64,000 bases of DNA from Paracoccaceae bacterium (GTDB taxonomy: Bacteria > Pseudomonadota > Alphaproteobacteria > Rhodobacterales > Rhodobacteraceae): NCBI GenBank assembly GCA_029243395.1, contig JAQWSE010000007.1, positions 193,690 to 257,689 on the forward strand. The letters run 5' to 3'. The notes beneath the pieces are model-generated. The model had not been told where the DNA came from, made no database searches, and saw only the letters and a program-made list of their open reading frames with translations. The translations under genes and the position numbers were made by a program. Positions 37,270 through 48,955 of this stretch are shown piece by piece (the first letter of the stretch is position 1; each line of letters opens with the position of its first letter).

Positions 37270-37289
37270 TATTTCACTGTATGAAACGC
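37270..37289. promoter_or_regulatory. Palindromic operator copy 1 (candidate IclR site)
   Basis: TATTTCACTGTATGAAACGC, with inverted half-sites TTTCA and TGAAA around 5 bases. It lies 51 bases upstream of the HIBADH-like gene at 37340. Read on the other strand, it differs at a single base from the site at 41182-41201, next to the IclR-family regulator. Binding is inferred. Confidence 0.62.
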
Positions 37290-37339
37290 TTCAAACACGA
37301 TATGATCCCGAAGTTGAAATTCATGTAGACTTAATAGAT

Positions 37340-38230
37340 ATGGAACAACCTGTGGAAAAACCAAGAATTGGAATCATTGGATTAGGTAAGATGGGTTCAG
37401 CGATTGCATCGCGGCTATCTAGGCAAGGATTTTCATTGAGTGGATGGAATAGAAGTTTTTTGCCAAAAGAAAAAGAGGTATTCCTTAATATTCAGATTGA
37501 GGCCAGTATTTCGGCTTTATCTAGGTCGGCAGAAATCATAATTCTCTCATTGAGTGACGATAATGCAGTGGTTGAAGTCCTCGGTAACTTATGTGCCAAC
37601 AATCTCGAAAACAAATTAATTGTTGATACCAGCACTGTTCGTCACACTACTCTTTCTGATAATTATGAGATCATCAGACGCTCAGGTGCTGATGCAATTG
37701 ATGCTCCTATTTCTGGCTGGCCTAAAATGATTGAAAATGGTACTGCTGGAATTTATATTGGTGGTGATAAACGGTTAGTGCAGAGATATCGGCCAGTAGC
37801 TGAGGTTCTATCAAACCGCGTTGAACATGTTGGTAAATTAGGTTCGGGAGCTGCTGCTAAGATAGTTAATAATATGATGTTAGCTAGTTACTGGCAATCA
37901 CTCAAAGAAGCTATTCAAGTTGGTATTAAAGCTGGATTACAGGCTGAAAATATACTTACTATTTTGTCAAGAAGTCCTGCAGCCAATGGAAGTTTGGCTT
38001 TAAAATCAGATGCAATTTTGGGAAGAGCAAATAATGTGACATTTACTATTTCTGGTATTGTGGAAGATTTGAGGATGTTTAATGAAACGGTTAAAAGCTT
38101 AAAGGTTCAAGCTCCAGCAATGCAGGCGGCTTTCAAGAGTTTTCATGAATGCAAGGAAGCAGGACATGGTGATAGTGATTTTATATCGATGATCAGTGCA
38201 GCTATCAGAGAAATTGAAGGATTAGAGTAA
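37340..38230 (+). CDS. 3-hydroxyisobutyrate dehydrogenase-like NAD(P) oxidoreductase
   Basis: A 296-residue beta-hydroxyacid dehydrogenase. The Rossmann motif IGIIGLGKMGSAIASRL opens the protein (about residue 11), DAIDAPISGWPKMIENGTAGIYIGG is the substrate-binding DxPxSG motif (about 120), and GSGAAAKIVNNMM carries the catalytic lysine (about 173). The family covers HIBADH, tartronate semialdehyde reductase and similar enzymes, so the 3-hydroxyacid substrate is open. It is first in an operon in which the next two genes start right at its neighbour's stop codon (0-base gaps). Confidence 0.85.
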   Translation: MEQPVEKPRIGIIGLGKMGSAIASRLSRQGFSLSGWNRSFLPKEKEVFLNIQIEASISALSRSAEIIILSLSDDNAVVEVLGNLCANNLENKLIVDTSTVRHTTLSDNYEIIRRSGADAIDAPISGWPKMIENGTAGIYIGGDKRLVQRYRPVAEVLSNRVEHVGKLGSGAAAKIVNNMMLASYWQSLKEAIQVGIKAGLQAENILTILSRSPAANGSLALKSDAILGRANNVTFTISGIVEDLRMFNETVKSLKVQAPAMQAAFKSFHECKEAGHGDSDFISMISAAIREIEGLE

Positions 38231-38860
38231 ATGTTTTTTGAGCCTAGTAAGGGACATGGGTTGAGCCACAATCCTATTGCAGCATGCGTTGCCCCGCGAC
38301 CAATTGGATGGATTTCGACTTGCAGCAAAGATGGTATAAATAACTTGGCGCCTTTTAGTTATTTCAACCTGGTTCATAATTTTCCACCGACTGTTATGTT
38401 CGCTTGCAATGGACTAAAACCAGACGGCACAGAAAAAGATAGTTGGAGAAATGCTGAAGAAACAGGAGAATTTGTTTATAATGTTGCTACAGACAATGTC
38501 AGAGAAAAAATGAACTTAACATCTACTTCCTGGGATTCGGAGGTTGATGAAATAAGTGAAGTTGGTTTAACTAGCATAGGATCGCGACTAGTAAAACCTA
38601 TGAGAATAGTTGAATCCCCTATTCAATTCGAATGCAAAACAATAAAAGTAATTCATCTACCTTCATCAAGTGATCAAAACCCTTCTAATATAGTTTTTGG
38701 AGAAGTGGTAGGAGTCCATATTGAGGATTCTTGCATGTCAGGAGGCAAAGTTGATTATGATAGGGTTAAACAAATATCCAGACTAGGTTATATGGATTTT
38801 GCGAGAATTGGAGAGATTTTCGTTATGCCCAGGCCTTACCCAAAGAAAGAGCAAGGTTAA
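38231..38860 (+). CDS. Flavin reductase-like (FMN split-barrel) protein
   Basis: A 209-residue protein with the flavin-reductase domain pattern: an N-terminal VAPRPIGWISTCSKDGINNLAPFSYFN (about residues 20-46), a GEFVYNVATDN segment and GEVVGVHIEDS. Members bind FMN and either reduce free flavin for a monooxygenase or act as uncharacterised esterase/reductase-like proteins. No monooxygenase partner is next to it. Placed between the HIBADH-like gene and the hydratase subunits with no intergenic space on either side. Confidence 0.75.
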   Translation: MFFEPSKGHGLSHNPIAACVAPRPIGWISTCSKDGINNLAPFSYFNLVHNFPPTVMFACNGLKPDGTEKDSWRNAEETGEFVYNVATDNVREKMNLTSTSWDSEVDEISEVGLTSIGSRLVKPMRIVESPIQFECKTIKVIHLPSSSDQNPSNIVFGEVVGVHIEDSCMSGGKVDYDRVKQISRLGYMDFARIGEIFVMPRPYPKKEQG

Positions 38861-39727
38861 ATGATTTCGTATGATTCAATAAAGAAATTATCGGCTGATC
38901 TTTATGATTGGTCTTTAAAGAAAATACCTGAAGACACTAAATCTCGCCTAGATGAAGCACTCAAGCATGAAACTGGTGAAAATGCGAGGAAAGTCTTAAA
39001 TTTTATGATCAAAAGTTCTAAGCTTGCTGAAGAAAAGGAAAGGTTCCTATGCTCAGATGCCGGTGTTCCTGTTTACAGTGTAAAAATAGGTTCTCAGGCT
39101 AATTTTGAAGGTGACATAAAGAGAGCTTTTGTAGAAGGATTTGATGAATTGGTGAAAAGGATAGATCCTCCATTACTAAAATTTGTACAGAATCCCTTGA
39201 CAAACGAACGATCTTTCAAGGGTAAAGATATGCCTATAATTTCCTGGGATATAGTAGATGGAGCGGAATATATTGATATAACCTGTTCACCAAAAGCTTT
39301 AGGTTCCGGAAGATGGGCAGCACTTGACATTTTTGTGTACCCGACTCTGGAGGACATCGAGAGATTCATAATGAAAACAGTTATAAAGGCCGGTTCACAA
39401 CATTGCCCACCAGTGATGATTGGGGTGGGGATAGGAGGTTCCTTTGATCATGCGGCAAAAATGGCTAAAATGTCGACCTTACGAAAACTAGGTACAGAAA
39501 ATCCTGAACCAATATTAGCAGACATGGAAAAGCGATTACTTAAAGCTATAAATAAGACTGGTTTTGGTCCTATGGGTCAAGGCGGAGATACGACTGCACT
39601 TGGGATACACATTGATTATTCAGCGGGGCATGGTTTTACCCCTATAGCTGTATGTTTTAACTGTTGGATAAATCGCAGAACTAGGGCACGCATACACAAC
39701 TCAGAAAAAATAGAAAGACTAGAATAA
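38861..39727 (+). CDS. Class I fumarate/tartrate hydratase, alpha subunit
   Basis: A 288-residue subunit of an iron-sulfur hydro-lyase that adds or removes water from a dicarboxylate. Cysteines likely to ligate the [4Fe-4S] cluster are C64 (CSDAGVP), C182 (HCPPVMIGVGIGG) and C268 (NCWINRR). The normal KGGGSEN-type active-site motif is replaced by SPKALGSGRW (about 143), so this is a divergent branch, and fumarase activity should not be assumed. The beta subunit begins 6 bases after its stop. In the operon with the HIBADH-like and flavin-reductase-like genes. Confidence 0.82.
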   Translation: MISYDSIKKLSADLYDWSLKKIPEDTKSRLDEALKHETGENARKVLNFMIKSSKLAEEKERFLCSDAGVPVYSVKIGSQANFEGDIKRAFVEGFDELVKRIDPPLLKFVQNPLTNERSFKGKDMPIISWDIVDGAEYIDITCSPKALGSGRWAALDIFVYPTLEDIERFIMKTVIKAGSQHCPPVMIGVGIGGSFDHAAKMAKMSTLRKLGTENPEPILADMEKRLLKAINKTGFGPMGQGGDTTALGIHIDYSAGHGFTPIAVCFNCWINRRTRARIHNSEKIERLE

Positions 39728-39733
39728 TTTGTT

Positions 39734-40351
39734 ATGAATAAAACCCACCACCTTTCTGTACCTTTTTTGCCAAATGATTTGGAAGTTTTAGAGATTGGTG
39801 ACTTGGTTTTTTTGAGTGGGGAAATAATAGTAACTGTTGGATTACCAACTCACGAGAGAATGAGAAACTATCTTGTTAGTGGTAAAGCTCTTCCCATGAA
39901 TTTTGAGAATAACATATTATGCCAAGTTGGATGCTATGTTGAAGAAAAAAATGGCATGATGCAAAGTCGGTACATTAATCCCTCGACAAGTACTCGGTTC
40001 GAACCTTATCTACCCGAGATTATTGAGGGGACAGGCATAAAAGCTATAGGTGGAAAGGGTGGGGTAGGACCCAAGACAATTAAAGCTATGAAAAAACATG
40101 GATGTATATATCTTTCCTTTATAGGGGGTGCTAGTGCCCTCACTTCTGATGCTGTTAAGGAAGTATTGGATATAAAGTGGAATGATTTCATAATGCAATT
40201 CAGGTTGATTAAGTTGCGAATTGAAAAACTTGGACCATTGAATGTTGGAGTGGATACCAAGGGAAACTGCCTTTATACTGATTTACAAACTCAGGCTCAG
40301 GACAATTTTGAAGACTTAATGCAAGAACTTAATCAAAATCGGCGAGTTTAA
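39734..40351 (+). CDS. Class I fumarate/tartrate hydratase, beta subunit
   Basis: A 205-residue partner of the alpha subunit. Characteristic parts are LEIGDLVFLSGEIIVTVGLPTHERM near residue 25, GTGIKAIGGKGGVGPKTIKAMKKHGCIYL (about 94) and FIGGASAL, which form the swivelling domain of the family. The C-terminus overlaps the end of the convergent IclR-family gene by 23 bases. The alpha/beta split occurs in tartrate dehydratase and in archaeal-type fumarase, while many bacterial enzymes are fused. Confidence 0.82.
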   Translation: MNKTHHLSVPFLPNDLEVLEIGDLVFLSGEIIVTVGLPTHERMRNYLVSGKALPMNFENNILCQVGCYVEEKNGMMQSRYINPSTSTRFEPYLPEIIEGTGIKAIGGKGGVGPKTIKAMKKHGCIYLSFIGGASALTSDAVKEVLDIKWNDFIMQFRLIKLRIEKLGPLNVGVDTKGNCLYTDLQTQAQDNFEDLMQELNQNRRV

Positions 40352-41123
40352 CTAATTCCCGAGCATTTTTACTGATACTTTTTGAAGCTTTCTGCAATGT
40401 TGTTACAAATTTTTGGATTGCCTCAAAACTATTATATGCAGAGCGAAAATAGGTAAGCCCAAGGGTTCCCATTACCCGATTTTCGCCATAAATAGGTACG
40501 GCTATAGTGTTGGAAGATCTTGGTTCTGCCTCAGGATTTCTCTCAGAAAAACCTTGTTGGTGTACTCGCTGGAGAGACTGTTTTAGTAAAATTTCCTTTT
40601 CATTCAAAGCAGCTCCTTTTAGCAAATTCAAATACCCTAATGTTCTTAGCAGGATTTCCTGTTCAGTTTTTGGGCAAAAAGCTAAATAGGCTAGGCCGAG
40701 AGCATGTTTGTCAAGGGTCAGGCTCATATTGACGGTAGCATGAAACGGTGAATTAGGACTATCAGAAATTGTCGAATATCTCACTACAACTTTTGTTTTC
40801 TCGAGTGTCGCAATCGAAGCTGGCCATGTGAATTTCTTAGTTAGGGCTATGGCTTGTGCTCGTCCAACCTCGACTACGAGAGGATCTCCATGGAACCCTG
40901 CGCTTAAGGAATTAACCTTAGAAGTAACTTGGTAACCTGCCTGTCTAGGATCATTAGTCACATATCCAGCTTGAAGAAGGGTTTGCAGTACTCTCACTAT
41001 GGTTGGTTTAGGCATTTTTGTTTTTAAGTGTAAATGGCGTATGGTTGAAACTCGGTTCTTATTGAGTTCTTCAAGAATCTTTAAAGTTCTCATGACAGAT
41101 CTTATAGGTAAAAATGAAACCAA
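40329..41123 (-). CDS. IclR-family transcriptional regulator
   Basis: A winged-helix DNA-binding domain (LPIRSVMRTLKILEELN, then MPKPTIVRVLQTLLQAGYV) is followed by the IclR effector domain, with QKFVTTLQKAS at the C-terminus. Family members control catabolic operons and bind a small organic acid. The frame is open to an ATG at 41174, but a TTG at 41123 is preceded by AAGGAAG at 5 bases and gives the usual IclR N-terminus, so I prefer it. The palindrome at 41182-41201 is then 59-78 bases upstream. Overlaps the hydratase beta subunit at the 3' end and stands between the two operons it probably controls. Confidence 0.85.
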   Translation of the reverse strand: MVSFLPIRSVMRTLKILEELNKNRVSTIRHLHLKTKMPKPTIVRVLQTLLQAGYVTNDPRQAGYQVTSKVNSLSAGFHGDPLVVEVGRAQAIALTKKFTWPASIATLEKTKVVVRYSTISDSPNSPFHATVNMSLTLDKHALGLAYLAFCPKTEQEILLRTLGYLNLLKGAALNEKEILLKQSLQRVHQQGFSERNPEAEPRSSNTIAVPIYGENRVMGTLGLTYFRSAYNSFEAIQKFVTTLQKASKSISKNARELVKLADFD

Positions 41124-41181
41124 TATTTCTTCCTTAATTTGTCTAGGAATGCTCACACATAGAGATAATATCATGGTCGAT

Positions 41182-41201
41182 GCGTTTCACACAGTGAAAT
41201 A
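41182..41201. promoter_or_regulatory. Palindromic operator copy 2 (candidate IclR site)
   Basis: GCGTTTCACACAGTGAAATA, which on the reverse strand reads TATTTCACTGTGTGAAACGC, one base different from the site at 37270. It lies between the divergent IclR-family gene and the DUF6282 gene, so it could control both (autoregulation plus operon control). Binding is inferred. Confidence 0.65.
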
Positions 41202-41300: not shown

Positions 41301-42185
41301 ATGAAAGATCGAGTGGATAAATTGATGACGGGATCTTTCGATCTTCACGTACATTCTGGACCATCTGTAATGTCAAGGAAGCTAGATCACCTGGGTGCGG
41401 TGAAGGAAGCTTCAAAAGCGGGTCAGAGAGGAATCCTTATAAAGGACCATTATTATGCTGGAGCACCACTAGTCAATTTGTTGAAACCTCTAATTGCTGA
41501 GTACAATGTTGAATTATTTTCAGGAATTCCTCTAAACAATACTTCCGGTGGTTTAAATCCATTTGCAGTAGATACTTTCCTAAAATCAGGAGCAAAGTTA
41601 GTTTGGATGCCGACATCTTCTGCTGCTAACCACATTAGATCAACTCATAGAAAGACCCGATTAGCTACCGCACGCCCGATGAAGAAGGCCGAAGCTATTT
41701 CAGTGGTCGATCATAAAGGAAACTTGGTCGATGAGGTAAAGGAAATCCTAGATTTAATTGCAGAATTTGATGCTATTTTATCTTCCGGGCATCTTCATAT
41801 CAGTGAGATATGGCCTCTATTTGAAGAGGCCAAGGCTAGAGGTGTCAATAGAAGGTTAGTTAATCATCCTTCATACGTGGTAGGTGCTAGTTTGTCCGAC
41901 ATGGAAGAACTCACTGGAAGTGGAGCTTATGTTGAGCATTCAGCCTCTTTCTATATTGAGAGTAAGTTTTTATGTTATACACATGAGGAATTAATTCAAC
42001 ATTTAAAGGCTAGTGGATTTGAAAGAACTATCCTTGGGTCGGATTTGGGGCAGGATGGGAATCCTACTCCAGTTGAAGGGATGAGGGCTTTTATAGAATT
42101 AATCTTGAGTCTCGGTTTTAAGGATGAAGATGTTGAAAAAATGGTTGCAAGAAATAGCACACGTCTAATAGGTCTAGATGAGTGA
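41301..42185 (+). CDS. DUF6282 (amidohydrolase-like, metal-dependent) protein
   Basis: A 294-residue protein that fits DUF6282. The N-terminal FDLHVHSGPS carries an HxH metal motif; other likely ligands are KDHYY (about 50), SGHLHIS (about 162) and NHPSY (about 189), with an aspartate in GSDLGQDGNPTP near 250. The arrangement resembles a TIM-barrel amidohydrolase/PHP hydrolase. The reaction is not known. It is the first gene of a unit that continues with an FAH-family protein and a TAXI-TRAP importer. Confidence 0.75.
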   Translation: MKDRVDKLMTGSFDLHVHSGPSVMSRKLDHLGAVKEASKAGQRGILIKDHYYAGAPLVNLLKPLIAEYNVELFSGIPLNNTSGGLNPFAVDTFLKSGAKLVWMPTSSAANHIRSTHRKTRLATARPMKKAEAISVVDHKGNLVDEVKEILDLIAEFDAILSSGHLHISEIWPLFEEAKARGVNRRLVNHPSYVVGASLSDMEELTGSGAYVEHSASFYIESKFLCYTHEELIQHLKASGFERTILGSDLGQDGNPTPVEGMRAFIELILSLGFKDEDVEKMVARNSTRLIGLDE

Positions 42186-42223: not shown

Positions 42224-43210
42224 ATGAAATTTTGTCAATTCATTCTACCAAATAAAGAAAGAGCTATAGGCTTTTCATGGGAAGGAGGCAAGAGTATAGT
42301 TCATGCCAAACCTATTTTTGAAAACATGAAGGAAGCAGGAGGGACAAAAAGTCTTTTTACTTTTCCAACCAGCATGAAAGCATTTGTAGAAGAAGGTGAG
42401 AATGCGCTAATTGCTTCTAGAGAAGTTCATAATAAGTTATCTATATCTGGGGAAGAAAAGCAGCATTCAGAGCATATTTTTCCTTATGAAACAACCCATC
42501 TTTTAGCCCCTCTCGAGAATCCACAGAAATTTTTTGCGGTTGCAATCAATAGGCATGGGGGTTGGGATAGTGCTATAAAGCCGAAACATCCTAACACAAC
42601 CTATTTTATAAAATTATCTTCTTGTATCGTAGGCCCTAAAGATACAGTGAAAATACCTGATGTAGGACAAGTAGGGCCTGAGGTTGAACTTGCTATAATC
42701 ATAGGTAGGCATGGAAAGGACATTAATCCTGAAGAAGCCTTGGATTATGTCTTTGGCTATACTGTCCACAATGACATCACAGCACACCAGATGCGAAAAA
42801 CCACTGAGTGGATAAGAATGAAAAGGGCAGATGGATCAGAAGAACATCTTACATATCCAGGTAGGTATAAGAACTTTGATACTTTCTCGCCAATGGGACC
42901 ATGGTTAGTAACCCCAGACGAAGCTCCCAACCCTGATGAGGCAATACTAGATGCTTGGCTCAACGAAGACCATGTTCAACACGGTTCAACAAGAGATCAT
43001 GTTTATCATTCTGCTCATTTAATCTCTTACCTGTCTAAGGCTCATGCCTTGGTACCAGGTGACATTATTTCAACTGGAACCGTTGGTCCCGTTGACCCAT
43101 GGACGATGGCCACAATCGATCTTGGAAAAGTTGGAGGGACCATACATGCTGCAATTGAAGGTCTTGGTCATATCTCCAATCCTATCGAATTTGTGCCAGG
43201 ACTAAAGTAA
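42224..43210 (+). CDS. Fumarylacetoacetate hydrolase-family protein
   Basis: A 328-residue FAH-fold protein. The metal-binding segment is GPEVELAIIIGRHGKDI (about 149) with E-x-E spacing and an aspartate in GYTVHNDITAHQM; further landmarks are FAVAINRHGGWD and GDIISTGTVGPVD. The superfamily includes hydrolases, decarboxylases and hydratases of beta-diketo acids and 2-keto-3-deoxy acids. Typical partner of sugar-acid and aromatic catabolism. A ribosome binding site (AAAGGAAAG) precedes the ATG. The TRAP binding-protein gene follows at 38 bases. Confidence 0.83.
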   Translation: MKFCQFILPNKERAIGFSWEGGKSIVHAKPIFENMKEAGGTKSLFTFPTSMKAFVEEGENALIASREVHNKLSISGEEKQHSEHIFPYETTHLLAPLENPQKFFAVAINRHGGWDSAIKPKHPNTTYFIKLSSCIVGPKDTVKIPDVGQVGPEVELAIIIGRHGKDINPEEALDYVFGYTVHNDITAHQMRKTTEWIRMKRADGSEEHLTYPGRYKNFDTFSPMGPWLVTPDEAPNPDEAILDAWLNEDHVQHGSTRDHVYHSAHLISYLSKAHALVPGDIISTGTVGPVDPWTMATIDLGKVGGTIHAAIEGLGHISNPIEFVPGLK

Positions 43211-43247
43211 TTGGAAATGAGAAACTTAAGTGGAAAAGGAGAATATT

Positions 43248-44396
43248 ATGTCAAAATTTGTTAAGAAATTTATAGGAGTTCTGACTTTGGGGGCCATATT
43301 GTTTTTCCCAATTTTAGCAACTAGTGAAGTAAAACTTCCAAGTACTATTTCTTGGACTGCATATAATGTCGGTAGTTCGGGTTATGGACAGTCAGTGGCG
43401 ATTGGGAAGGCGCTCCAAGACGCATATGGCGTTACACTTCGTGTGGTCCCTGCCAAAAATGATGTATCCCGTGTAGTTCCTGTGATAAAAGGGCAAATCG
43501 ATTTTTCTGCGGCAGGATCAGGGGTATTTTATGCAGTTGAGGGTGTTTCAGGATGGGCGAAACCAGAACTAGGACCCCAACAATTACAAATGGTGATGAG
43601 TTCGACAGGTCGAAATTGTCTGGCACTTGGAACTGCAACAGATGCAAACATTAAAACGGCTGCAGACCTTAAGGGTAAGAGGCTGCCTTGGGTAATTGGT
43701 TCGCCTTCACTACAGACAAATGTTACTGCCTTTCTGGCATACGGAGGTTTAGATTGGAGTGATGTCACGCGGGTTGATGTTGCAAGTTTTGGAGCCGCAT
43801 GGAAAGCCATCTTGAACAACCAAGCGGATGCAATGACTTCTTTCACTACGGGTGGTGGGACAGAACTAGACGCTTCACCTCGTGGATTAAGCTGGCTGTC
43901 CACACCGCATAGTGAAACAGAAAACTGGGCCAGAATGCAGGTTGTCGCGCCTCATATGGCACAACGCACAGCAACTTTAGGAACCAACCTCTCGAAAGAA
44001 AACCCACTCCAATGTGGAGGGTTCCCCTATCCTATATTAGTAACGGCACCAGATAGAGATGCTAATTTGGTTATGAACATGGCTAAGAGCATTAGCGCCC
44101 AGTTTGATAATTTTGTTAAGGCTGAACCTTCTGCTGGTGGATGGGCAAACGAGCGTCAAAACTTTCAGTGGGTACTGCCTTACCACAAAGGTTCTGTAGC
44201 GTTTTGGAAATCCGAAGGCCTTTGGTCTGCCGAGGATGACGCGCATAATCAGAATTTGCTTAAGCGACAGTCGGTCATTGCCACCGCATGGGAAGGCATG
44301 GAAGATAAAACCGAAGATGGGTTTAAAGAGCGCTGGATGGCGGCTCGTTTCCAAGCGCTAACTGATGCAGGTATGCCAGCTGTTTGGGAAAAATAA
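43248..44396 (+). CDS. TAXI-family TRAP transporter solute-binding protein
   Basis: A 382-residue periplasmic protein. The signal peptide (KKFIGVLTLGAILFFPILATSE) ends about residue 26. The mature protein opens with ISWTAYNVGSSGYGQSVAIGKAL, the typical TAXI ligand-binding start, and includes VVPAKNDVSRVVPVIKGQIDFSAAGSG and DLKGKRLPWVIGSPSLQTNV. It delivers a solute to the fused permease downstream, with sodium-driven uptake. AAGGAG before the ATG at 43248 fixes the start. Its stop overlaps the permease frame. Confidence 0.9.
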   Translation: MSKFVKKFIGVLTLGAILFFPILATSEVKLPSTISWTAYNVGSSGYGQSVAIGKALQDAYGVTLRVVPAKNDVSRVVPVIKGQIDFSAAGSGVFYAVEGVSGWAKPELGPQQLQMVMSSTGRNCLALGTATDANIKTAADLKGKRLPWVIGSPSLQTNVTAFLAYGGLDWSDVTRVDVASFGAAWKAILNNQADAMTSFTTGGGTELDASPRGLSWLSTPHSETENWARMQVVAPHMAQRTATLGTNLSKENPLQCGGFPYPILVTAPDRDANLVMNMAKSISAQFDNFVKAEPSAGGWANERQNFQWVLPYHKGSVAFWKSEGLWSAEDDAHNQNLLKRQSVIATAWEGMEDKTEDGFKERWMAARFQALTDAGMPAVWEK

Positions 44397-46342
44397 ATTT
44401 GCAGAATTCAGATCAAAAAACGACATCAAGTCGTTTTAGGTCATTAACAGAATTTTATTTGTGGCCACTTAGAGTGGCCACAATTGTAATGGTGCTTTTG
44501 GCAGTTAATCAGGCTTTTAATTTTCATTTTTTCATAGGATATACATTACTATCGAATAAATATCTGTATTCGATACTCATAATAGTAATTCCGTCTATCT
44601 TTATTTTAATACCCGGCTCTATAAAGGGCTCAAAATTGTCTGTTCCCATACTTGATTTATTTTTAGCACTATCGAGTATTACTATTTTGGCATGGTTTAT
44701 AGCCAACTCATTTGATATGATGGCATATGGTTGGGAATTAGCAGCACCAATCAATGCTCAATATTTTTCCATTGCATTGTGGATCATAGTTTTTGAAGCT
44801 GCTCGCAGAGCTGGAGGTATTGGACTTGCCATTATAGTGGGTACTATCTCTCTCTATCCTCTATTTGCAGACAGGATGCCTGGACCAATTAGAGGTTTTT
44901 CTTTCGAACTTGGAACTGCCGCTGGTTATCATGCCATGAGTGATGAAAGTATTATAGGAATTCCAATGCGAGCATTTTCAAATTTAGTTATTGGTTTCTT
45001 AATTTTTGGAGCAGCATTACAGCATACAGGCGCAGGTAAATTTTTCATTAATTTGGCATTTGCCCTATTGGGGCATATCAGGGGCGGTCCTGCCAAAGTA
45101 GCTATAGTGGCGAGTGGATTAATGGGATCTATGAGTGGTTCAGTCGTAACTAATGTGATGACCACTGGTGTGATGACAATACCAGCTATGAGAAAGATAA
45201 AATTGTCAGCGCCATTTGCTGCTGGCGTGGAGGCATGTGCATCAACTGGAGGTGTATTGATGCCCCCAGTGATGGGGGCTACAGCATTCATCATGGCAAA
45301 TTTTTTGGAGACCTCCTATGCGAATGTCGCTTTGGCTGCGATCATCCCGTCTTTCTTATACTTTTTTGGTCTTTTTATCCAAATTGATGCCAGAGCTGCG
45401 ACTGAAAAGCTGGAGGGGCTTGATAAAAAAGAGCTACCTTCTCTAAGTCAAACCTTAAGAGACGGATGGTACTATGTTTTTGCTTTTGGTCTTTTGGTTT
45501 ACTTGTTGCTCTTTTTAAGAAGGGAAATGCTAGCACCTTTTTATGCTACTCCCTTATTAATTCTAATTAACCAAATTTTTTCACCTAAAACCCGCTGGGG
45601 AGTAAAAGAGCTTTTATCTTTTATTGACTCACTTACCAAGCTATTTGCCGAGCTTGTCGGAGTTCTTGCAGGAATAGGTTTAATCGTGGGGGCACTTTCT
45701 ATGACAGGCTTAGCAGGTACCCTGGTGAATGATTTGCTCTCAATCGCAGGAGGCTCTCCGATGATTCTGTTGCTTATTGGGGCAATGACAAGCTTTGTTT
45801 TGGGCATAGGTATGACCGTAACAGCTGCATATATATTTCTGGCAATTTTGCTTGCACCTGCGCTAATTAGTACGGGCATGAACCCGATTGCTGTTCACAT
45901 GTTCATTTTTTATTGGGGGATGTTGTCATTTATTACACCACCTGTCGCACTAGGTGCTTTTGCAGCTGCATCTGTGGCCAAGTCCCCCCCAATGGCGACG
46001 GGGTTAGAAGCAATGAGATTAGGTAGCGTCATTTATTTTATCCCATTCTTCTTTGTACTTGATCCAGCATTGGTATTAGTGGGGCAACCTGCCCAAGTCA
46101 TACCAGCACTCGCTTTGGCAATAATAGGCATATTTATTTTCTCAGGCGCTATGCAGGGGTATCTATATGGGGTTGGGAATCTAAATATTGTTGAAAGAAC
46201 TATGATGTTTTTTGGTAGTCTTCTTTTACCCCTGCCAGGGCACACAATTTTTCCAATTTCAAAATCCTATTTATTGGTTATTTGTGCATGCATGCTATTA
46301 CCTGTGATCATTTTTCCATACGTTCGGAATAGGAGAGGGTAA
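44384..46342 (+). CDS. TRAP transporter fused 4TM/12TM permease (TAXI type)
   Basis: A 652-residue permease with many spans. The small-subunit part comes first (about residues 25-150), and the large subunit carries AFSNLVIGFLIFGAALQHTGAGKFFINLA, GSMSGSVVTNVMTTGVMTIPAMRK and ASTGGVLMPPVMGATAFIMANFL, which are standard motifs of the fused TAXI-TRAP permease. The only early starts are TTG (44384 or 44399), the first overlapping the binding-protein stop; no strong ribosome binding site distinguishes them. The last gene of the DUF6282-FAH-TRAP unit. Confidence 0.9.
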   Translation: MGKINLQNSDQKTTSSRFRSLTEFYLWPLRVATIVMVLLAVNQAFNFHFFIGYTLLSNKYLYSILIIVIPSIFILIPGSIKGSKLSVPILDLFLALSSITILAWFIANSFDMMAYGWELAAPINAQYFSIALWIIVFEAARRAGGIGLAIIVGTISLYPLFADRMPGPIRGFSFELGTAAGYHAMSDESIIGIPMRAFSNLVIGFLIFGAALQHTGAGKFFINLAFALLGHIRGGPAKVAIVASGLMGSMSGSVVTNVMTTGVMTIPAMRKIKLSAPFAAGVEACASTGGVLMPPVMGATAFIMANFLETSYANVALAAIIPSFLYFFGLFIQIDARAATEKLEGLDKKELPSLSQTLRDGWYYVFAFGLLVYLLLFLRREMLAPFYATPLLILINQIFSPKTRWGVKELLSFIDSLTKLFAELVGVLAGIGLIVGALSMTGLAGTLVNDLLSIAGGSPMILLLIGAMTSFVLGIGMTVTAAYIFLAILLAPALISTGMNPIAVHMFIFYWGMLSFITPPVALGAFAAASVAKSPPMATGLEAMRLGSVIYFIPFFFVLDPALVLVGQPAQVIPALALAIIGIFIFSGAMQGYLYGVGNLNIVERTMMFFGSLLLPLPGHTIFPISKSYLLVICACMLLPVIIFPYVRNRRG

Positions 46343-46508: not shown

Positions 46509-47129
46509 ATGATAAGAAAATTTGATGACACTACCGCATTACTTTTAATTGACACCCAGAAAGGAGTGAATGATACATTCTATTATGGAGGCAAGAATGG
46601 GCGAAGAAACAACCTTAAAGCCGAGGCCAATATTATTTCTCTCTTGGAAAAGTGGCGTGACGCAGAGGGCCGAGTAGCCTTTACAAGGCATGACTCTAGA
46701 GAACAGAATTCCCCTCTCAAGCTGAATCTTGAAAGTGGTGAACAACTTGAAGGCATGGACCCAGGAAAAGGGGACCTTGTTGTGACAAAGGATGTAAATA
46801 GCGGGTTCATAGGAACCTCCCTTGAACTAGATTTAAGAAGATTGGGTGTTCAGCGGTTAGTTGTAGCGGGGTTTTTCACTAATGTTTGCATTGAAACCAC
46901 TGTTCGTATGGCCGGAAACATGGGGTTTGATACTTATTTGGTTCATGATGCCTGCGCAGCAATGAACTGCATCGGTCATGATGGTACTGACTATGACCCT
47001 GAAACCGTTCATAATATGGCAATCGCGAACCTTCATGGTGAGTTTTGTACTGCTATTACTACTGAGCAAACCTTAAATCTATGTGAAAAGGATTGTAGTT
47101 TTTTGAACAGAGTTCAAGGAAACGAGTAG
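46509..47129 (+). CDS. Isochorismatase-like cysteine hydrolase
   Basis: A 206-residue protein of the isochorismatase/nicotinamidase superfamily. The catalytic triad candidates are Asp in LLIDTQKGV (about 14), Lys in VVTKDVNSGF (about 97) and Cys in FTNVCIETTVR (about 127). Members hydrolyse amides, ureido compounds or isochorismate; a ureido or amide substrate fits the amidinohydrolase next door. It overlaps the following gene by one base (stop TAG and start GTG). Confidence 0.82.
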   Translation: MIRKFDDTTALLLIDTQKGVNDTFYYGGKNGRRNNLKAEANIISLLEKWRDAEGRVAFTRHDSREQNSPLKLNLESGEQLEGMDPGKGDLVVTKDVNSGFIGTSLELDLRRLGVQRLVVAGFFTNVCIETTVRMAGNMGFDTYLVHDACAAMNCIGHDGTDYDPETVHNMAIANLHGEFCTAITTEQTLNLCEKDCSFLNRVQGNE

Positions 47130-48001
47130 TGTTTGGAGTTTCATCTATGACGGCACCCTTAAAAAAGGTCGCTGTTAAAAAACCTGGTACCTCCTTAATT
47201 AATGCAAAAGCAGATGAGTGGCATTACGGTCCTTCATTTGATCCTAAAAAGATTGGTGCAATTCATTCCATTTTTGTTCAGATGTTGAAAGATTCTGGTG
47301 TAGAAGTTTTCTGGATGCCTGAACATGACTTTGGCATTGCTGACGCGATTTTCACATATGATGCTTCTCTTATGACCCCATTGGGAGCTATCCTAATGTC
47401 ACCTGGAAAGTTTTTGAGAAAAGGCGAGCAAAATATTCATCGAGACTTTTATGAGAATTTTAACATACCCATTATAGGGAGTATTGAAGCTACTGGACTT
47501 GCAGAAGCGGGAGATACGCTGTGGTTAGACGATGAAACACTCATTATCGGCAGGGGCTTTAGGACAAATCCTGAGGGCATTAAACAAATCAAAAGAATAC
47601 TCAGCCCACAAAACATCACTATCCACGTGTTTGACCTGCCTGTTTTTTCAGGTCAAGCTGCTTGCTTACATCTTATGTCTCTGATTAGTCTTGTTGACAC
47701 GTATTCTGCACTAGTATGCTTGCCCCTTTTGCCTGTGGGTTTACTGGAATTACTTAAAGAAAAGAATTTTTCTTTAATAGAGGGCCCTTTTCATGAATTT
47801 GAAAGAAGTAATACACTTAGTAACAATGTTTTGGCAATAGGGCCTGGGGATTGTATAATGATTGACAGTGTTCCCGAGACAGAAACCGCCTTAAGGAATG
47901 CAGGCATAAAAGTGCAAGTATTTAATGGTGACTGCTTGTGTGTGGGCTGTGAAGGGGGACCCACATGTTTGACCAGACCTCTATTAAGAACACATGGTTG
48001 A
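47129..48001 (+). CDS. DDAH/arginine deiminase-fold amidinohydrolase-like protein
   Basis: A 290-residue member of the guanidino-group-modifying superfamily. The catalytic Cys appears in EGGPTCLTRPL near the C-terminus, the His in ACLHLMSLISLVD (about 175) and acidic residues in AEAGDTLWLDDETLIIGRGFRTN (about 128). Dimethylarginine dimethylaminohydrolase converts methylated arginines to citrulline; close relatives act on other guanidines. The start GTG at 47129 has AAGGA 8 bases upstream and keeps the conserved FGVSSMTAPLKKVAVKKPG segment; an ATG at 47147 (TTTGGAG upstream) would start later. Linked to an isochorismatase-like hydrolase, which could process a released urea or amide. Confidence 0.8.
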   Translation: MFGVSSMTAPLKKVAVKKPGTSLINAKADEWHYGPSFDPKKIGAIHSIFVQMLKDSGVEVFWMPEHDFGIADAIFTYDASLMTPLGAILMSPGKFLRKGEQNIHRDFYENFNIPIIGSIEATGLAEAGDTLWLDDETLIIGRGFRTNPEGIKQIKRILSPQNITIHVFDLPVFSGQAACLHLMSLISLVDTYSALVCLPLLPVGLLELLKEKNFSLIEGPFHEFERSNTLSNNVLAIGPGDCIMIDSVPETETALRNAGIKVQVFNGDCLCVGCEGGPTCLTRPLLRTHG

Positions 48002-48109
48002 TTATTATAAATCTTTAGTACTAAGATCAAGGGTATTCCTTTTTTGAACTTCATCCTCTTTAGTTTTTAAAAAGAATTTTGCGAAATATTCACCAAAAGG
48101 TGTGGTTCA

Positions 48110-48955
48110 ATGATTGAAGTAAAAAAAATTACACCTGTGATTGGAGCAGTAATAGAAGGTGTAAATTTTTCCAAGCCTATTGATAAAAAAGTTTTTGATC
48201 AAATTTATGAGATTTTAATTGAAAACCTTGTTATCTTTTTTAGAAATACCAATATCTCACCAAATGCCCATTTGGAGTTTTCAAAGAACTTTGGTGAATT
48301 AGATGATCCTCATCCTGTTTATCCTAATGTTGAGGGTTTTAGTAGAATAGTTAAACTAGAAAATGATGAACATTCACCACCTGACACTGATGCTTGGCAC
48401 ACAGATCTAACTTTCAAACAGGAACAGCCATTTGCGTCAGTACTAGTGGCTCGTTCTGTGCCAGAAATAGGCGGTGACACACTTTGGTCTAGTTGTTATG
48501 CCGCTTATGAGAGACTTTCTTCTGGAATGAAAGCAGATTTTGAGAAGATTAAATGCATCCATGATATGGGTGACTTTAGAAATACATTCGCGCAATCACA
48601 AAATGGTAAATCTGGTGTTGATCGGTTAAATGAGGGCATGTCTAAATTTGGTCAAAATATACGCAATCTAATTGAAAGGCATCCAACTAGCGGGAAAAAA
48701 TATCTTAATTTTAACGAGTCATTTGTTTCACATATAATTGGTAAGACTATGAATGAAAGTAATGCACTAAAAACATTTTTAACCAATCATATGAACAAAC
48801 CTGAGGATCAAATTCGTTGGAATTGGAAATCAGGTGATATGGCTATGTGGGATAATAGAGTTACTATGCATTACGCTATAGCTGATTATCTCCCTAACTA
48901 TAGGTGCATGAATAGAGTAACCATTATTAATGACAAAAGGTCCAAGATAATTTAA
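48110..48955 (+). CDS. TauD/TfdA-family Fe(II)/2-oxoglutarate dioxygenase
   Basis: A 281-residue enzyme. The iron ligands are visible as HTDLTF (HxD, about residues 97-99) and a distal His in MWDNRVTMHYAIADY, with the 2-oxoglutarate-binding arginine in YRCMNRVTI. The family hydroxylates taurine, 2,4-D, carnitine-type substrates, trimethyllysine and others; this one has no sulfonate transport or other clue to specificity next to it. It is separated from the DDAH-like gene by 108 bases and read in the same direction. Confidence 0.85.
   Translation: MIEVKKITPVIGAVIEGVNFSKPIDKKVFDQIYEILIENLVIFFRNTNISPNAHLEFSKNFGELDDPHPVYPNVEGFSRIVKLENDEHSPPDTDAWHTDLTFKQEQPFASVLVARSVPEIGGDTLWSSCYAAYERLSSGMKADFEKIKCIHDMGDFRNTFAQSQNGKSGVDRLNEGMSKFGQNIRNLIERHPTSGKKYLNFNESFVSHIIGKTMNESNALKTFLTNHMNKPEDQIRWNWKSGDMAMWDNRVTMHYAIADYLPNYRCMNRVTIINDKRSKII

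Follow-up and report, generated by a model that had tools for sequence, protein, structure and literature searches.

An IclR-type regulator with two putative operators and a probable accessory catabolic gene block in a Paracoccaceae genome

A 64,000-nucleotide stretch of a Paracoccaceae bacterium (GCA_029243395.1, contig JAQWSE010000007.1, positions 193,690 to 257,689; hereafter the window) carries nine adjacent genes grouped around an IclR-family regulator and two nearly identical short palindromes. Judged from the sequence, they appear to make up an accessory catabolic block that is self-contained and has a local IclR regulator of its own and two putative operators, a reading to which we assign a probability of roughly 0.8. 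One operon encodes a HIBADH-like dehydrogenase (HIBADH), a flavin-reductase-like protein (FlavR) and the two subunits of a class I fumarase-type hydro-lyase (FumA and FumB). The other encodes a DUF6282 protein, a fumarylacetoacetate hydrolase (FAH)-fold enzyme and a TAXI-type TRAP transporter. Through a regulator and an operator of a known kind, DUF6282 is linked to a catabolic block that is defined, regulated and apparently transferable and that has its own importer. This makes the substrate question testable, with a single binding protein and a single sensor to work on as well as two promoters and eight genes for enzymes or transport. In dozens of relatives, the operator that they share can also serve as a handle for collecting the whole pathway.

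The initial annotation had placed a 20-bp palindrome in front of both operons. In the window scan, the 20-mer matched at 37270-37289 on the plus strand (no mismatches) and at 41182-41201 on the minus strand (one mismatch). The two copies differ at a single base, and no third place with up to three mismatches was found in the 64 kb (mean of 100 shuffles, 0.00). The two near-identical copies therefore stand, but the symmetric unit is shorter than 20 bp, namely a 15-bp inverted repeat, TTTCAC-N3-RTGAAA. In putative operator 1, the core TTTCAC-TGT-ATGAAA (37272-37286, plus strand) has 5 of 6 arm pairs, and its centre is 61 bp 5' of the HIBADH start codon. In putative operator 2, the core TTTCAC-TGT-GTGAAA (41185-41199, minus strand) has 6 of 6 arm pairs and lies in the gap between the divergent IclR and DUF6282 genes, its centre being 18 bp from the start of the IclR open reading frame (ORF) and 109 bp from DUF6282. 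The outer bases AAACG agree with the extended consensus of relatives, in which position −2 is C in 68% and position −1 is A or G in 96% of 94 sites, counted in both reading directions. The genome of the same organism was searched as well (2.49 Mb in 13 contigs), as had been suggested with the annotation. The 17-mer TTTCACTGTRTGAAACG occurs there exactly twice, only at the two window sites, with no place at one or two mismatches and nine at three; the pattern written backwards gave 5 forward and 5 reverse places.

Relatives were collected by several routes, and their loci are numbered with the prefix L. IclR matches were obtained in 4 of 149 family genomes at 1e-30 and in 4 of 385 class genomes at 1e-40, the own genome being counted in both. 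Among the six other matching genomes, three neighbourhoods contained DUF6282 (L019-L021), and L022-L024 had no block gene apart from IclR. In plasmids, DUF6282 proteins were found in 47 records, five of which were examined. Since L025-L029 (5 of 88 loci) were found via DUF6282, the DUF6282 counts are quoted for the test set described next. A scan of genome contigs with an IclR alignment identified 164 relatives, and the analysis covered the best 80 of them; a single-sequence IclR scan of genome contigs found none. L019-L029 and the published motif had been seen when the consensus was fixed, and L030-L109 served as the test set, giving 79 loci with an IclR relative after the removal of L088. 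This locus lies on the same contig as L021; it was also dropped from the 77- and 87-locus sets and the tree, and kept in the sets of 88 and 89. Gene presence was assessed by tblastn with window and relative proteins. For the sites, the flanked pattern WTTYCRYN3RYGRAAW was replaced by the unflanked degenerate core TTYCRYNNNRYGRAA, because the former missed both window sites, one outer base of which is C.

The test set contained 82 exact cores upstream of cluster genes, distributed over 57 of the 79 loci, with at least two in 22 loci, compared with 2 in 557 kb of coding DNA and 17 neither upstream of nor within a recognised gene. The palindrome is therefore not, as would have spoken against the annotation, frequent and unlinked to these genes in relatives. 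In the full set, 96 exact cores with a spacer of 3 lay within 250 bp upstream of recognised cluster genes (65 of 88 loci). By comparison, 633 kb of coding DNA held 2, and spacers of 0-8 other than 3 gave 0-2 upstream cores each. Permuted half-sites gave a mean of 1.5 over 179 permutations, the best of them (52, 37, 37, and 32) overlapping with the motif via its ambiguous letters. In an unguided count of exact 5-bp inverted repeats with spacers of 0-10 across 87 loci, parts of the motif filled the first eight places, the eighth being tied with an unrelated repeat. In the roughly 250 bp that precede iclR, the best site had at most one mismatch in 55 of 89 regions; the expectation from 50 dinucleotide shuffles was 2.4 regions. 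Sites of this quality preceded the genes for DUF6282 in 52 of 88 loci, TctC in 42, IclR in 41, HpcH in 34, FumA in 21, BKACE in 19, the cupin in 13, and others. The four closest relatives (L030-L033) all have an exact core in the DUF6282/IclR gap.

Several observations weigh against this reading. The degenerate core has a background in the own genome, where it occurs at 12 exact places compared with 10 for the reversed control. Ten of the 12 fall within ORFs that have 90 codons or more, which leaves the two window sites as the only intergenic ones; because of this background, the claim rests on position, on the stricter sequence, and on conservation. The 17 test-set cores outside any recognised context belong here too, as do the 34 of 89 regions with no site of at most one mismatch near iclR. 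The sites in front of HIBADH in the closest relatives are individually weak: three of the four loci have a one-mismatch site (shuffle fractions 0.044, 0.044, and 0.062), and L033 has only a two-mismatch site there (0.292), with an exact core in its HIBADH-FlavR gap. Within the genus, DUF6282 was found in the own genome only (1 of 12), the other 11 genomes being 60-89% complete. In a reverse control, 17 loci were fetched via DUF6282 instead of IclR, four of which (L147-L150) have a DUF6282 protein 40-51% identical to that of the window. L147, which shares its contig with L021, has sites. In L149, there are two one-mismatch sites but no relative of the window IclR was seen in the 19 kb, and the short contigs L148 and L150, with their close DUF6282, have neither sites nor a window-type IclR. 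The other 13 loci, which are more distant and show no window-type IclR, gave an exact core in L153 and a one-mismatch site in L161. The motif thus tracks the IclR subfamily much more closely than it does DUF6282 as a whole, with L149 as the exception.

The regulator itself (40329-41174, minus strand) matches HTH_IclR with 32.8 bits (cut-off, 22) and IclR_C with 35.2 bits (cut-off, 24). Its best family-level match is NF007342, which we take to be an MhpR-like model, and in this respect it resembles MhpR-type regulators. However, the score (239.9 bits) is below the curated cut-off of 251, and the block contains no aromatic-ring-cleavage gene. At its start, the ORF extends about 20 residues beyond most of nine aligned orthologues, and the true start may be a different one. 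In a tree built by a quick method with Shimodaira-Hasegawa-like approximate likelihood ratio test (SH-aLRT) support, the window protein groups with those of L028 and L030-L032 (98) and then with that of L033 (95). Residues P55, K56, T58, and R61 in the recognition-helix region are invariant in the nine orthologues. By our own placing, they align with Pro46, Arg47, Thr49, and Arg52 of TtgV, which are reported as important for DNA binding in the main text of a survey of IclR regulons (Suvorova and Gelfand 2021, PMC8222616). The same text gives the group-1 operator as GKTYCRYW3-4RYGRAMC, with subgroups having GTT or WTT flanks, and site centres mostly 20-80 bp upstream of the start. Both window sites fit the core TYCRY-N3-RYGRA. 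The spacer TGT has A/T at two of three positions, agreeing in part with W3, and the flanks are mixed between the two subgroups, one being ATT and the other AAC. Placement near the regulator and catabolic operons, the small local regulon, and the site positions (centres at −61 for HIBADH, −18 for the IclR ORF, and −109 for DUF6282), which are inside the reported range, are also as described there for group 1. In contrast, the target set of the window was not found in the parts of the survey that were consulted, and "TRAP" and "fumarate" occur 0 times in its main text. The annotated idea that the palindrome marks an IclR regulon gains support from its linkage to IclR relatives and to operons of the same kinds, the uniqueness of its stricter form in the own genome, and the group-1 core.

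Here, we propose how the regulon may work. The IclR protein would bind the 15-bp inverted repeat at two promoters, and it very probably acts on both operons. Site 1 would serve HIBADH-FlavR-FumA-FumB, and site 2, in the divergent gap, would serve iclR itself as well as DUF6282-FAH-TAXI-TRAP; the regulon is thus probably autoregulated. Repression of both operons is the mode that we moderately favour: IclR may keep both operons and its own gene silent, with release when its C-terminal domain binds either the imported acid or an early intermediate. A less probable but still considerable alternative is that IclR is an activator at both promoters, inducing when its ligand is bound. MhpR-like and PcaR/PcaU-like models are among its best NCBIfam matches, several relatives of MhpR and PcaR being activators, and the distances of the operator centres, 61 bp to HIBADH and 109 bp to DUF6282, would be compatible with upstream activation. 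Against activation, the DUF6282 operon has a weak promoter-like pair (9 of 12 matches; chance mean 0.7, not significant) whose −35-like hexamer begins at 41186, inside operator 2, which would fit occlusion, and no plus-strand promoter-like pair was found in front of HIBADH. The promoter scans were not above chance at either operator.

The gene families were borne out by Pfam and NCBIfam, and the view of the annotation that the genes form a co-regulated pathway with its own importer draws support from relatives. All nine genes of the block recur in L030-L033, with order and orientation unchanged from the window. The TRAP permease of L030 is fragmentary, and the FumA frame of L033 is present but masked by a longer antisense frame in one frame listing. 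The flanks of these four loci differ, save for an aminotransferase gene 3' of the permease in L031 and L033. Plasmid pW43B of Parasedimentitalea marina (L028) has the set in another arrangement: FAH is missing, an HpcH aldolase and a cupin are present, and DUF6282 stands in one line with HIBADH-FlavR-FumAB. DUF6282 was present in the fetched locus in 73 of 79 test-set loci. That the two operons are mere neighbours with independent functions and a shared regulator, not one pathway, is an unlikely alternative. It would account for the mixing of modules in relatives, where DUF6282 has varied enzyme and transporter partners, and for the presence of a close HIBADH (at least 40% identity) in just 5 of 77 loci. 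However, the block order is kept in L030-L033 despite their differing flanks, and pW43B brings DUF6282 into line with the genes of the other operon.

The distribution among relatives, the differing flanks, the plasmid-borne set, the rarity in the genus, and the base composition (40.3% G+C in the block versus 37.6% in the rest of the window, near the top of the 9-kb windows) suggest that the block is accessory and was probably acquired by transfer. Plasmid pW43B is a likely route of such transfer; its repABC replication genes are near the gene set (L028 98-3587).

It is improbable that a different regulator, such as either of the two further IclR_C proteins encoded in the genome, binds the palindrome. 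IclR-family motifs resemble one another, to go by the main text of the survey (PMC8222616), and L149 has its one-mismatch sites in 19 kb without a window-type IclR. Nevertheless, the degenerate core is absent from both paralogue loci (about 3.5 kb each), it accompanies the window-type IclR in 57 of 79 test loci, and it is nearly absent at distant DUF6282 genes that lack this regulator. A functionless chance repeat, for which one might cite the 10 occurrences of the degenerate core inside genes of the own genome, has a negligible probability, given an expectation of 0 for two copies and the strong enrichment before cluster genes of relatives. Local control by the adjacent IclR protein is thus the preferred reading.

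The enzymes of the block are assigned to families only, because none reaches an equivalog cut-off of NCBIfam and named activities are therefore not warranted. The first gene (37340-38230, plus strand, as are all the enzyme and transport genes) encodes a HIBADH-like NAD(P)-dependent beta-hydroxyacid dehydrogenase. Its scores against TIGR01692 (107.7 of 291.6) and TIGR01505 (117.6 of 340.75) are below the cut-offs, and it matches none of the 3-hydroxyisobutyrate or tartronate-semialdehyde (2-hydroxy-3-oxopropionate) reductase/dehydrogenase equivalogs at the required level. The second (38231-38860) is a Flavin_Reduct FMN split-barrel protein with profile matches to 3bpk, 4z85, and 1eje. The hydro-lyase consists of an alpha subunit (Fumerase, 38861-39727) that exceeds the domain model TIGR00722 (202.3 of 100.65) and a beta subunit (Fumerase_C, 39734-40351) that is under TIGR00723 (117.6 of 145.15) and above Pfam Fumerase_C (96 of 22.2). 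This two-subunit layout resembles class I fumarase and L-tartrate dehydratase (TtdAB), and C64, C182, and C268 of the alpha subunit align with cysteines of 7xky and are presumably those of an Fe-S cluster. In contrast, the 7xky stretch PKGAGSEN corresponds to PKALGSGR in the window protein, and the fumarate hydratase and L-tartrate dehydratase equivalogs are not reached (NF004885, 215.9 of 276; NF006084, 141.9 of 365). In the other operon, the FAH-fold enzyme (42224-43210) has an FAA_hydrolase domain (153.4 of 23.9 bits), which it shares with its two best NCBIfam matches, 2,4-didehydro-3-deoxy-L-rhamnonate hydrolase and HpaG. However, these scores are 121.8 of 500 and 120.5 of 276.4 bits, and all six matched NCBIfam models are under their cut-offs, so its function is not assignable. 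The TAXI-type TRAP solute-binding protein (43230-44396) exceeds TIGR02122 (147.1 of 84.35), and the fused TRAP permease (44384-46342) exceeds TIGR02123 (563.2 of 320.65). The isochorismatase-like, arginine-deiminase-like, and TauD-like genes that come after the permease (46509-48955) were rejected as pathway members, having no relatives in L030-L033 (E 1e-10).

The DUF6282 protein (41301-42185) is predicted, by model and residues, to be a metal-dependent hydrolase of the amidohydrolase superfamily, with metal binding likewise predicted. No credible solved-structure relative was found by sequence. The match to 6een, a designed repeat protein, covered 42 residues (whole-sequence E 7.5e-6, no single stretch passing), and that to 7w89 had E 0.075; both were set aside as chance. 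An AlphaFold2 model from 16 sequences (mean predicted local distance difference test score 90.7) best matched 2i5g (E 6.4e-9, template modelling score 0.65 on query length, root mean square deviation 5.9, 13% identity), followed by renal-dipeptidase-like and TatD-like entries. Other TIM barrels, such as deoxyribose-phosphate (DERA) aldolases, appear lower in the list, so the invariant residues carry part of the argument. H16, H18, K48, D49, H50, H164, H189, and D248 are invariant in the 16 sequences, and they contain the HxH, Lys, His, His, and Asp that we take to be the residue set of the superfamily. As modelled, the protein thus combines the TIM-barrel fold with this set. Members of the family were found in 18 of 385 class genomes, including the own genome. 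L072 and L077 have three DUF6282 genes each, two of the three preceded by a site with at most one mismatch, which suggests family expansion under the same regulator.

As to the pathway, TAXI-TRAP would import an organic acid, probably not glutamate. The bond on which DUF6282 acts may be that of an ester, a lactone or an amide, or a related one. The Fe-S hydro-lyase would hydrate or dehydrate a di- or tricarboxylate, and the HIBADH-like enzyme would oxidise or reduce a hydroxy acid. The FAH-fold enzyme may cut a carbon-carbon bond; in most relatives, this step appears to fall to an HpcH/HpaI aldolase and a cupin. Our guess from these enzyme classes is that the substrate is a di- or tricarboxylic acid that is unsaturated or hydroxylated, or the lactone of such an acid. 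Glutamate was considered and disfavoured as the imported substrate. VcGluP, the TAXI-TRAP system of Vibrio cholerae, likewise has a TAXI solute-binding protein and uses a Gln for glutamate, according to its description (PMC11574862). The window protein has G97 at this position and lacks the glutamate-binding Gln, which makes glutamate unlikely; the similarity is weak (E 2e-6), and the placing of Gln93 is our own. Homarine catabolism was also dropped as a pathway guess; the literature on it, judged by title and opening of the abstract, did not deal with this block. Searches of open-access literature likewise gave nothing on DUF6282 and no pathway that joins these families. The annotation knew of no described pathway that does so, which agrees with the outcome of these searches, although it stops short of proof. 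We give about even odds to an undescribed catabolic pathway, widespread in Alphaproteobacteria and marked by the operator and DUF6282 (a new amidohydrolase-superfamily group), with a modular core in which the carbon-carbon bond is cut either by FAH or by HpcH and the cupin.

We hypothesize that FAH and HpcH-cupin are two alternative carbon-carbon cutting modules. Loci shorter than 15 kb (10 of 87) were left out of the co-occurrence and tree analyses, and identity cut-offs (for example, 50% for FAH and 40% for HpcH) were set after a first, looser gene survey. At these cut-offs, none of the 77 loci has both, 13 have FAH only, 54 HpcH only, and 10 neither. With a looser cut-off, L035 and L089 carry a distant FAH match (33% and 31%) alongside HpcH. 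HpcH and the cupin are together in 53 loci, each being alone in one. The FAH enzymes concerned fall into two subfamilies with about 33% identity. When mapped on the IclR tree, the FAH label needs 5 changes against HpcH rows, at least 3 of which are forced by well-supported branches, and 7 when all rows count. In four independent pairs on well-supported branches, HpcH never changes in the same way as FAH; it changes in the opposite way in 1-3 pairs and shows no difference in the rest (median p 0.25). Counting against the modular reading, the exclusion is not significant once relatedness is taken into account. The presumed cupin is a 302-residue protein (L028 13716-14624) with no Pfam or NCBIfam match; by eye, its histidine-rich motif looks like that of a two-domain cupin. 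It occurs in 54 of 77 loci, and its neighbour there is nearly always the HpcH aldolase.

A few further features of the relatives were observed. The aminotransferase after the TRAP permease belongs to class V (L028 21837-22841, L031 3528-4730, L033 near 2861). Its best NCBIfam match is BhcA, far below the cut-off, and it is not beside the block in the window. The contig of L030 is filed under a Blastopirellula metagenome-assembled genome (NORP48), and its block has up to 85% protein identity to that of the window; it is probably a misbinned alphaproteobacterial contig. Its neighbouring frames were judged by eye to be recombinase-like and DNA-transfer-ATPase-like. On a Mameliella alba plasmid, the cupin and quinone-oxidoreductase genes are each in two pieces (L025 9283-10181 and 14925-15332), as are DUF6282 and the cupin on the Neorhizobium galegae VafX2 plasmid (L029 11917-12863 and 13942-14858); these splits are frame breaks or sequencing errors.

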